In this document: positions 9,605-52,664 of the stretch, one piece after another
Numbering within the stretch: the stretch's first letter is position 1
How the letters are laid out: each line of letters begins with the position of its first letter
Source: Halothiobacillus sp.
Lineage (GTDB): Bacteria; Pseudomonadota; Gammaproteobacteria; Halothiobacillales; Halothiobacillaceae
Reading direction: 5' to 3'
Assembly (NCBI GenBank): GCA_023255735.1
Contig: JAGDVP010000012.1
Coordinates: forward strand, 1 to 64,000
Length of the DNA stretch: 64,000 nucleotides
The notes under the pieces: generated by a model
What the model was told of the DNA's origin: nothing
The model's database searches: none
The model's input: the letters and a program-made list of their open reading frames with translations, nothing else
Translations under genes and position numbers: made by a program

Positions 9605-10846
9605 CTAAGCCCCAACGCAACTTTGTGCCACCAATTCCACCGGATGCAACACAGGTTTGCCGAGCCCCGCCGCCAGATGCGTGGCGCAACCGATATTGGC
9701 GGAAACGACAACATCGGGCTTTAATGCCGCGACTTCAAGAAGTTTAGGCGTGCGCAAGGCAAAGGCTTGCTCTGGGAACATCAGCACATGCATGCCCGCA
9801 GCGCCGCAGCAGCGGTCGTTGCTGGATAGTGGCACGAGCTTAATGGCGGGGATTTTACGCAACAGCCGCTCGGTGCTGGTTGGGTTTTTCAGCACACGGG
9901 TTTGGCTGCACGGCAAATGAATCGCCACCGTGGCCGGATTCGGTGCGAGCTTTGGCCATAACTCATCGGGGCTGTTCGCCAGAAAATCGGTGATTTCAAC
10001 CACGGGCACGTCCCACGCTGCACGCTGCAACTCACCCGTGCACGCGGTTCCAATCACGATAATCGCAGTTAACGTGGGATCGGCAAAGATGCGCTGATTG
10101 TCAGTACGCAATGTCGCAGCTTGCGTTAAATCGCCGCCGTGTTGATGCATCGCGCCGCAGCACACTTGCGTTTTTGGCATGTGCACCGCGAAGCCTAAGG
10201 CGTTTAAAACCTGAATACTGGCACGCACCACATCGCTATTAAGCGATTCGCCGGTGCAGCCAATAAATAACCCCACTTTTTGCAATGACGAATTGAGTGG
10301 CGCGGGCTGCGTGTTAAATCGAAAGCGAGCGGGCAGCACGGGCGGTAGGGTTTGTGCCAACCGCCCGCCGAATCGCCGCACGAGGCCAAGAAGCCAAATT
10401 TTTTCAAAAAAGCGCAGCAGCGACCACAATCGGCCGAAGGTTTGCCGCTGGCTTAAAACGTAATCGCGCAGCCAACGCCAACGCGGCTCAGTGGCCTTGG
10501 GTGTGATGCTCTTAATCGAGCGTGCAAAATCGCGCGTCGCTAGTGCAGCGCGGGTTTGATCAATAATCGCACCATACTGCACAAGCGAAGGGCATACCGA
10601 TTCACACGCGCGGCAGGTGAGGCAAGCATCTAAATGGGCAACTACATCGGGCGTGGCGGCCAGATGCCCCTCGCTTAACCCTAAGGCCAAGCTAATGCGC
10701 CCGCGAGGGCCATCGGCTTCGTTACCCGTGCGTGCGAAGGTGGGGCAATGGGGCACGCAAATGCCGCACATCACGCATTCCAGGGCGTGCTGGCGGATTT
10801 GGGCTTTTAACTTGAGCGGGGGCTGTGCGTTGGATGTGGTGTTCAT
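9605..10846 (-). CDS. glcF: Glycolate oxidase iron-sulfur subunit (GlcF-like)
   Basis: GlcF carries electrons from the flavin subunits of glycolate dehydrogenase toward the membrane quinone pool. The 413-residue length fits the family (407 in E. coli). Two ferredoxin-type clusters are visible, with Cys24/27/30/34 and Cys75/78/81/85, followed by two CCG domains of the heterodisulfide-reductase type (CCGAMHQHGG and CCGAAGMHVLMFPE). No glcD or glcE lies next to it, so its flavin partners must be encoded elsewhere or it may serve a related 2-hydroxyacid dehydrogenase. I chose the ATG at 10846; a TTG 30 bases upstream is less likely. The gene is monocistronic here. Confidence 0.85.
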   Translation of the reverse strand: MNTTSNAQPPLKLKAQIRQHALECVMCGICVPHCPTFARTGNEADGPRGRISLALGLSEGHLAATPDVVAHLDACLTCRACESVCPSLVQYGAIIDQTRAALATRDFARSIKSITPKATEPRWRWLRDYVLSQRQTFGRLWSLLRFFEKIWLLGLVRRFGGRLAQTLPPVLPARFRFNTQPAPLNSSLQKVGLFIGCTGESLNSDVVRASIQVLNALGFAVHMPKTQVCCGAMHQHGGDLTQAATLRTDNQRIFADPTLTAIIVIGTACTGELQRAAWDVPVVEITDFLANSPDELWPKLAPNPATVAIHLPCSQTRVLKNPTSTERLLRKIPAIKLVPLSSNDRCCGAAGMHVLMFPEQAFALRTPKLLEVAALKPDVVVSANIGCATHLAAGLGKPVLHPVELVAQSCVGA

Positions 10847-10912
10847 AGCGGCATCAAAGCATGCGGTTAGGTGCAAGGCAAGTCACGATAACGCGGGTGA
10901 TTTTAGAAGTGT

Positions 10913-11006
10913 TTGCATTGTTAGTGCATTAGTGTATTCTAATGTCGTTAATTGCTGATTTCCTTTGGTGGTTCTAGTTGCCGGTGCTTGCACCGGCTCT
11001 TTTTTG
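10913..11006 (+). ncRNA. Candidate small RNA: promoter plus intrinsic terminator with no ORF between
   Basis: A plausible sigma-70 promoter, TTGCAT (10913-10918), 16 bases, TATTCT (10935-10940), faces right. About 40 bases after the expected start lies a strong terminator: GCCGGTG (10980-10986), a CTTG loop, CACCGGC (10991-10997), then TCTTTTTT. The predicted RNA is about 60 nt, roughly 10947-11006. No plus-strand gene precedes this terminator (glcF diverges to the left), and rpmB has its own promoter beyond it, so it is not a normal gene end. It could be a small regulatory RNA or a remnant leader. Only sequence signals support it. Confidence 0.4.
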
Positions 11007-11057: not shown

Positions 11058-11086
11058 TTGTCAGCGGTTTAAAATTCCGCTAGTAT
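11058..11086 (+). promoter_or_regulatory. Predicted sigma-70 promoter of rpmB-rpmG
   Basis: TTGTCA at 11058-11063 and TAGTAT at 11081-11086 are separated by exactly 17 bases, 48 bases before the rpmB start codon. It lies downstream of the terminator at 10980-11006, so the ribosomal genes can be transcribed independently of that upstream signal. Confidence 0.6.
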
Positions 11087-11133: not shown

Positions 11134-11370
11134 ATGGCCAGAGTCTGCCAAGTCACCGGCAAACGTCCTGCCGTTGGCAACAACGTATCGCATGCGAACA
11201 ACAAAACCCGTCGTCGCTTTCTGCCAAATCTGCAACACAAACGGTTTTGGGTAGAAAGCGAAGGTCGTTTTGTTAGCCTGCGCGTATCAACAAACGCGAT
11301 CCGTACCATTGATAAATTAGGTATTGATGTGGTTTTAGCTGATCTGCGCGCACGCGGTGAAAAGTTTTAA
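11134..11370 (+). CDS. rpmB: 50S ribosomal protein L28
   Basis: A 78-residue ribosomal protein, the same length as in E. coli and alignable throughout: [45 protein letters not shown]. It is a component of the large subunit, near the peptidyl-tRNA site. TAGGAGAA precedes the ATG. rpmG follows after 68 bases, the conserved bacterial pair. Confidence 0.98.
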
Positions 11371-52190: not shown

Positions 52191-52664
52191 TTATTTAATG
52201 CAGGCTTTGTTAGCGACGTCTTGTGCCTGTTTAACCCGACTCGCAATTTCTTCGGGGGTTAACGCGCGATACTTGCCGTCGGCCTCTTGCGTCATGAGCT
52301 GGTTTTGTGAGTTTTGTAAGGTTTTAATTTGTTCTTGCGCCGCTTGGCAGGCTTTTTCCGCTTCTTTTTTGTTCACAACTGTGATGGGTGCGTTGGGCGC
52401 TAGCGGCTCTTTGGGGGGTTCGGTGGCGGCTTCTTTGTCCGGGTTTTCAGACGCTTTAGATGGGGATGCGCTGGGTGTGGCAAAGTCAGGATTAATCTCC
52501 TTCACCTCGCCTTGGGCGGGTGGAATTTGGCTAAAATGAGTTTCGCCTTTTTTATCAACCCACTTATAAATGCGAGTCGTATCGTCAGCATGGCTCACTG
52601 TTGCGGCGAGCACAAAACTTGCGCCCATTAAAGACAGCAGCGCGATTTTCCCGAGGCTTTGCAT
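52191..52664 (-). CDS. DUF4124-domain secreted protein
   Basis: The 157-residue precursor has a signal peptide (about 1-26, IALLSLMGASFVLAATVSHA) and a short DUF4124 domain right after it (RIYKWVDKKGETHFSQIPP). A Pro/Ser/Glu-rich linker and a helical end with two cysteines (EKACQAAQEQIKTLQ and NKACIK) follow; these could form a disulfide in the periplasm. DUF4124 proteins are common in gammaproteobacteria without a known role. It is a single gene; the 197 bases to the left must contain the proS promoter. Confidence 0.85.
   Translation of the reverse strand: MQSLGKIALLSLMGASFVLAATVSHADDTTRIYKWVDKKGETHFSQIPPAQGEVKEINPDFATPSASPSKASENPDKEAATEPPKEPLAPNAPITVVNKKEAEKACQAAQEQIKTLQNSQNQLMTQEADGKYRALTPEEIASRVKQAQDVANKACIK

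Follow-up and report, generated by a model that had tools for sequence, protein, structure and literature searches.

A predicted 59-nt small RNA gene of Halothiobacillus, apparently the local form of a class-wide rplM-linked family, with sqr as a candidate target

We analysed a window of 64,000 nucleotides from the 2.06 Mb genome of a Halothiobacillus sp., a bacterium that oxidises sulfur. In this window a glcF-like gene and the ribosomal protein gene rpmB (L28), which is followed on the plus strand by rpmG (L33), are separated by a gap that contains the elements listed in Table 1. The top NCBIfam model for the glcF-like product was GlcF, at 194 bits, which is under the cut-off of 333. A first-pass annotation of this DNA had described a promoter, TTGCAT-N16-TATTCT, followed by an intrinsic terminator, with no protein gene between them, glcF running in the opposite direction and rpmB served by its own promoter, and had proposed a small RNA of about 60 nt. 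The promoter elements are in the sequence as described, 16 nt apart, with a 39-nt stretch between TATTCT and the terminator stem; glcF is indeed divergent, the open reading frames in the gap are short, and a separate promoter-like pair precedes rpmB. The -10 element is spanned by a dyad, ATTAG-N6-CTAAT (10928-10943), and the exact dyad/-10 pattern occurs in this genome at the small RNA (sRNA) locus only.

Table 1. Positions, within the window, of the predicted sRNA gene, its parts and its neighbours.
Feature	Position	Strand	Basis
glcF-like gene	9605..10876	-	Open reading frame; ATG start at 10846 likelier; divergent neighbour kept with the sRNA
-35 element TTGCAT	10913..10918	+	Read in the sequence; TTG there in 19/19 aligned Halothiobacillaceae loci (by eye)
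-10 element TATTCT	10935..10940	+	TATNNT in 19/19 (by eye)
Predicted small RNA, 59 nt	10947..11005	+	Start inferred 7 nt past the -10 element, end inferred at the T run
Invariant block 1 AATTGCT, 5' arm of weak GU-rich hairpin	10950..10956	+	Invariant in 19/19 aligned loci
Class-wide core TCCTTTGGTGG, overlapped by block 2	10961..10971	+	Exact in the window; at most one mismatch in 70/76 class loci
Invariant block 2 CTTTGGTGGTTCT, presumed pairing region	10963..10975	+	Invariant in 19/19 aligned loci
Intrinsic terminator: stem GCCGGTG/CACCGGC, loop CTTG, then TCTTTTTT	10980..11005	+	Stem-loop 10980-10997; compensatory changes in relatives
Promoter-like site of rpmB, TTGTCA-N17-TAGTAT	11058..11086	+	Sequence scan
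rpmB (L28), downstream gene in the window	11134..11370	+	rplM-rpsI occupies this place in related genomes

Single-sequence statistics alone made a weak case for this element. The TTGCAT/TATTCT pair was absent from the output of a sigma-70 scan of the window, and terminator-like sites in the scan numbered two against 2.0 expected in shuffles, which is chance level. The predicted RNA folded below its shuffles to a moderate degree (z -2.8; 3 of 200 shuffles equally low). It is the comparative evidence that raises the claim well above chance.

Using blastn (E <= 1.4e-4), the element was detected in eight of the nine other Halothiobacillus genomes and in 10 of the 17 other genomes of the Halothiobacillaceae; 10 of 11 genomes of the sister genus Guyparkeria carry it. 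At E <= 0.001, blastn did not find it in any of five genomes of g3 (another genus of the family), in the single g2 genome, or in any of 69 other genomes of the class. Three more genomes, G026 (E 1.6e-7), G019 (E 0.0016) and G013 (E 0.028), came from a covariance model, and a further model, R3, added G010 (E 4.9e-8), so that blastn and the covariance models together place the element in 23 of 27 family genomes. In all 23, glcF is adjacent and divergent. As for the four genomes without the sRNA, glcF is cut at a contig end in G001, no glcF was found in G017, and the RNA is absent from the gap between glcF and rplM in the g3 genomes G011 and G015. By eye, all 19 aligned loci show a TTG separated from a TATNNT by 16-18 nt. 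When a named sequence collection was scanned for an exact pattern, 14 stretches were returned, 13 of them Halothiobacillaceae and one labelled Proteobacteria only.

The ribosomal protein genes behind the sRNA vary among close relatives: they are rpmB-rpmG in the window and rplM-rpsI in G009, and rpmB replaces rplM in four family genomes, the window's included. The order in G009 is trpC-osmC-glcF-sRNA-rplM-rpsI (trpC named by eye), which joins the family loci to the class-wide loci described below. The window has the glcF side of the class-wide position with rpmB in the place of rplM, and the rplM side is present in G009 and in the g3 and g4 (Guyparkeria) relatives.

Within the RNA, the two invariant blocks are separated by a spacer of 4, 5, 6 or 7 nt that varies among genomes. 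In Halothiobacillus and Guyparkeria the blocks are predicted to be able to form a weak GU-rich hairpin whose loop shows UUUCC or AUCCUCCUUU; covariation support for this hairpin 1 was absent in the family alignment. The g3 RNAs are about 86 nt long, with predicted hairpins farther upstream and UUCCUUUGGUGGUU partly to largely open, and the GU-rich hairpin 1 was not predicted for them. Conservation of the terminator stem in related genomes, a check that the first-pass annotation had proposed, could be confirmed: the stem is retained with compensatory changes, four pairs having changed on both sides in the Halothiobacillaceae alignment. For the entire structure, the covariation score was reached by 0 of 500 shuffles and the count of pairs changed on both sides by 16 of 500. 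The joint conservation of promoter, core and terminator supports the proposed small RNA of about 60 nt as the best reading of this element.

To look beyond the family, we built a covariance model (R2) from 22 Halothiobacillaceae sequences. Of 369 class genomes, 103 (four of them Halothiobacillaceae) had an R2 match at E <= 0.001, usually a single one. We read 76 loci outside the family (16 + 60), the R2 matches left out being mostly low-ranked. The core TCCTTTGGTGG was present with at most one mismatch in 70 of the 76 loci, the 70 representing 66 genomes and 43 family codes; it was exact in 62 and failed in L235, L260, L269, L274, L277 and L282, the core of L269 carrying a single extra base. 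Per-base counts over the class loci give the core as CTCCTCCATCCTCCTTTGGTGGT. Core retention alone is circular, because R2 contains the core. Extra support comes from three features outside R2. First, 63 of the 70 core-bearing loci have CTCC in the 16 nt that precede the core, R2 covering only the inner part of that 16-nt stretch. Second, among the 37 of 70 loci that have an upstream ATATTA or ATATAA, 24 have TTGAC at a single fixed offset. Third, rplM lies downstream on the same strand in 45 of 70 loci, 44 of them within 700 nt. A divergent glcF was found upstream in 12 of the 70 and osmC in three, and these neighbour counts are lower bounds because most of the stretches were short. The terminator stem of the class loci has changes on both sides at seven pairs.

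The reciprocal model, R3, was built from 69 class loci and zero Halothiobacillaceae sequences. Its best match in the window was the sRNA itself (10950-11005, 26.5 bits, E 9.7e-5, these E-values being rough). R3 also matched other Halothiobacillaceae loci, two of them weakly on their own (L008, E 0.07; L010, E 0.24), and gave nothing better than E 2.6 on six control loci. A second R3 match in the window (52495-52555, E 0.011) was attributed to chance; it is on the antisense strand of a coding gene, and its fold is no better than that of shuffles. The window has both the exact core and the terminator of the class-wide RNAs. The CTCCTCCA half upstream of the core is absent at the window's sRNA locus, which reads AATTGCTGAT there. 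These comparisons suggest that an apparently uncatalogued sRNA family is spread across the class and that the window RNA is its shortened local form; the position upstream of rplM would be a fixed landmark for the family. The first-pass annotation had gone no further than the small RNA itself; its place as a reduced member of a much wider family, with a candidate target, is what the present analysis adds.

Several minor features of the class loci were recorded. The TTGACA lies 11 nt before ATATTA, an odd spacing for a sigma-70 promoter; the stretch may hold a true -10 element or a regulator site. Two of the three genomes of family code f69 (G094 and G327) have four and five matches, some of which (among L207, L209, L223, L224 and L225) are in tandem about 150-280 nt apart, and elsewhere matches are mostly single. 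A plasmid collection gave zero matches, and a phage collection gave two partial matches, both from the same phage.

Comparison with known RNA families gave no assignment. At the gathering score, Rfam returned no match for the window, and Rfam 15 at threshold returned no sRNA family for the 36 class loci tried (of 76). The best E-value for the window stretch was to RF02866 (ncS16 / Bc_KC_sr1; 22.9 bits, E 0.0099), below its gathering score of 48 and, by eye, leaning on the terminator. RF02278, the Betaproteobacteria toxic sRNA, is the nearest Rfam family: it aligned below threshold to 15 of 16 class relatives at 26 to 44 bits (best 44.2), with four model positions missing in the aligned class relative. 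The window RNA falls outside RF02278, neither it nor any of the 36 class loci reaching the gathering score of 50; RF02278 had no match to the window RNA up to E 10, or to L007, L013, L066 and L067 up to E 1. One class relative had a weak match to RF02877 (NmsRb), at 23.5 bits against a gathering score of 52.

The likeness to these RNAs is one of design. According to the available excerpts of PMC5688073, RF02278 comprises the Burkholderia double-hairpin RNAs (ncS03, ncS05, ncS27, ncS62; bdhR1), which are 57-92 nt long and have a terminator hairpin and a CU-rich stretch complementary to ribosome-binding sites. The window RNA, as predicted from sequence, shares this combination of a short RNA, a CU-rich anti-ribosome-binding-site core and a terminator. 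The excerpts of PMC11722255 describe Bordetella S17 as having a highly conserved C/U-rich 5' region and a terminator, also like the window RNA. They give the Bordetella pertussis form, S17S, as a 67-nt RNA that is Hfq-dependent, represses BP2158 by pairing near the ribosome-binding site, is not similarly toxic, and is two bases apart from bdhR1 in the conserved region. S17S differs from the window RNA in being processed from a 190-nt precursor and in lying beside coq7, and we liken the two by description rather than by a letter comparison of their cores. The RF02278 RNAs are kin of Bordetella S17, and the predicted window RNA shares the CU-rich anti-ribosome-binding-site design. Neisseria NmsR siblings are likewise CU-rich and complementary to ribosome-binding sites of metabolic genes, in the excerpted text of PMC5688073. 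In a literature text search with the core strings (text, figures being outside the search), no sRNA paper was found and the longer core was nowhere present; title searches gave none on Halothiobacillus sRNAs, on Halothiobacillus transcription start sites or on an rplM-linked sRNA. CU-rich anti-ribosome-binding-site sRNAs are already described in Burkholderia, Bordetella and Neisseria, and one that has held the same locus in dozens of families would make such RNAs older and wider than described.

Collectively, the computed conservation, terminator covariation, synteny and family relation, along with the computed complementarity to sqr, point to a stand-alone sRNA gene, the Halothiobacillaceae form of the rplM-linked family; its product, CU-rich and about 59 nt long, would act in trans as an anti-Shine-Dalgarno RNA and repress via ribosome-binding sites, most likely that of sqr. 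We consider this reading probable. It is taken as stand-alone because promoter, core and terminator are conserved jointly, because glcF stays constant while the downstream operon changes, and because rplM has a promoter-like pair. The gene, kept upstream of rplM-rpsI and often beside glcF or osmC in many class genomes, would be transcribed from its own promoter and end at its own terminator. Under a presumed inducing condition, its core UCCUUUGGUGG would pair with ribosome-binding sites and block translation, probably assisted by Hfq; hfq is present in this genome. In Halothiobacillus nearly the full length of both invariant blocks could pair with the sqr mRNA start region, and repression of sulfide:quinone oxidoreductase would be the likeliest specific job of the RNA. 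For sulfur oxidisers this offers a concrete candidate for post-transcriptional control of sqr and, if true, links sulfide oxidation in a chemolithoautotroph to regulation by an RNA.

The sqr candidate came from a search of 27 family genomes with the target pattern ACCAAAGGA-N3-12-ATG, which gave 39 matches in 21 genomes; two of these were the sRNA itself, and the reversed control gave 24. The sqr start region found in G001 reads GGCACCACCAAAGGAGTTAGCAACATG. Solved sulfide-quinone reductases align with the sqr product over 423 residues (599 bits); in Pfam, a 90-residue piece matched no family and the full-length protein had PF07992, a general family, as its sole match. The block CAAGGCACCACCnnAGGAGTTAGCACC is largely retained at sqr in 8 of 10 Halothiobacillus genomes. 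We computed pairing for 19 usable start regions from 25 sqr loci, using the cognate or nearest RNA. In six genomes the duplex energies were -36.1, -34.6 (G009), -31.2, -28.4, -27.5 (the window's genome) and -27.0, with 0 of 300 shuffles as low, and in two genomes they were -22.2 and -22.9 (1.3% and 2.7% of shuffles as low). Pairing was unremarkable in two of 10 Halothiobacillus genomes (G004 and G006), in G013 and in six of eight Guyparkeria start regions (>=10% of shuffles as low), though these RNAs keep the core; only G024 and G016 stood out in Guyparkeria. When ranked among sampled start regions, sqr came first of 372 in G009 (z -5.3) and first of 312 in the window's genome (z -3.6), the background start regions having been called by a simple script in 15-17% of each of the two genomes and deliberately including the sqr stretches and, in the window's genome, one other pattern-search candidate. 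In a decoy test, 0 of 60 shuffled RNAs per genome ranked sqr first in these two genomes. These figures are to be read with sqr having been chosen after a search with 39 matches, and with G001 and G009 being close relatives. A pattern with both blocks gave 48 matches, 19 of them sRNA loci; the other 29 compare with 20 for the reversed control, which is little enrichment, and the gene named among them was sqr in G001 only. The complementarity makes sqr a strong candidate in Halothiobacillus, and we hold tentatively, somewhat short of an even chance, that it is a true target. Since sqr fails to explain conservation of the core elsewhere, several targets are indicated.

The alternative that weighs most is a broad and non-specific anti-Shine-Dalgarno RNA that would act as a growth brake on many mRNAs with no favoured target such as sqr. 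The CCUCC/UUUCC core suits any strong Shine-Dalgarno sequence, the start-site pattern gave no family-wide target (39 matches vs 24), and the excerpts of PMC4603805 and PMC5688073 name RF02278 RNAs toxic for inhibiting E. coli (Kimelman et al. 2012, as excerpted in those two papers and in PMC7011215) and report that overproduction of ncS27 slows growth. Against this, sqr stands out in both the decoy test and the ranking for two Halothiobacillus genomes, and the invariant GGTGGTT and AATTGCT exceed what a Shine-Dalgarno match needs. We regard a broad RNA as a real possibility that is nonetheless the less probable option. A longer evolutionary account is also possible, on balance doubtful: one ancestral sRNA gene, fixed between glcF/osmC and rplM-rpsI, would have persisted across much of the class, its core CUCCUCCAUCCUCCUUUGGUGG nearly unchanged, as a global regulator of the anti-Shine-Dalgarno kind that is so far uncatalogued, and in Halothiobacillus would have lost its 5' hairpin and half of the core, come down to 59 nt and been re-tuned to repress sqr.

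That the RNA is instead the prematurely terminated leader (attenuator) of a ribosomal-protein operon, in which the terminator would gate transcription into rplM or rpmB and leave the short RNA as a by-product, is unlikely. The RNA does lie upstream of and co-directional with rplM in the 45 class loci, and with rpmB in the window. However, a leader implies a continuous transcript with no separate operon promoter, and of 44 loci examined, 43 had a promoter-like pair in the stretch that separates the sRNA terminator from rplM, the spacer being 17 nt in 39 of these; this is evidence from sequence, the pairs averaging 7.9 of 12 matches compared to 5.7 in shuffles and many having only 7 of 12. The downstream gene also varies while the core stays (rpmB, rplM, purH in L212, fumC in L210), and attenuation would leave the invariance of the core unexplained. 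It is very improbable that promoter and terminator lie between the genes by chance and that no RNA is made, a reading that suits the chance-level scans of the single sequence but not the joint conservation across genera and families. A short open reading frame or leader peptide is the least credible, since two 43-aa TTG frames do overlap the gap but the 4-7 nt spacer between the invariant blocks breaks frames and the invariance extends to every codon position.

Other candidate targets of the predicted stand-alone sRNA were also considered. The start-site pattern gave no family-wide target: of 30 loci read, three genes recur, in two or three close relatives each, namely a lipoprotein (G014, G021, G012), a glycoside-hydrolase-like gene (G016, G024) and an ATP-synthase-c-like gene (G005, G007), all named by eye. 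In G019, 14 nt at a rhodanese gene are perfectly complementary to the sRNA of that genome (0.7% of shuffles equally low); this gene was rejected as a target because it is a single case, with orthologues in G015, G011 and G017 that have neither sRNA nor site. A further orthologue is in G010. The start regions of glcF, rpmB and rpmG showed no unusual pairing with the sRNA. Start regions of thrS (L294, L313) gave the second-best pairing in G009 and the sixth-best in the window's genome (L313 named by eye).

The dyad over the -10 element was considered as a sulfide-responsive (BigR/SqrR-like) operator and set aside as no more than a lead. With two mismatches allowed and 27 genomes searched, the window's genome had 10 matches compared to 10 in the reversed control, and ATTAG is also present in class relatives of the sRNA locus, which counts against such an operator. 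The SqrR motif given in the excerpted text of PMC9774250, ATTC-N8-GAAT, differs from the dyad, and the available excerpts of PMC7315123 and PMC10451225 give no BigR/SqrR-like operator motif. An ATTA-N8-TAAT-type dyad that resembles the one over the sRNA -10 element lies about 180 nt before sqr in three Guyparkeria genomes (L182, L186, L191) by pattern, with similar letters by eye in some of the others. Finally, the 23-nt sequence GGTTCTTGTTGTTGCCGGCGTCT is present elsewhere in G014 and G018 (L070 and L071, minus strand, about 1501-1575; E about 0.008). Some Guyparkeria sRNA copies, L011 for one, carry the same letters in their 3' part, and the sequence may be a partial copy or a sibling RNA.
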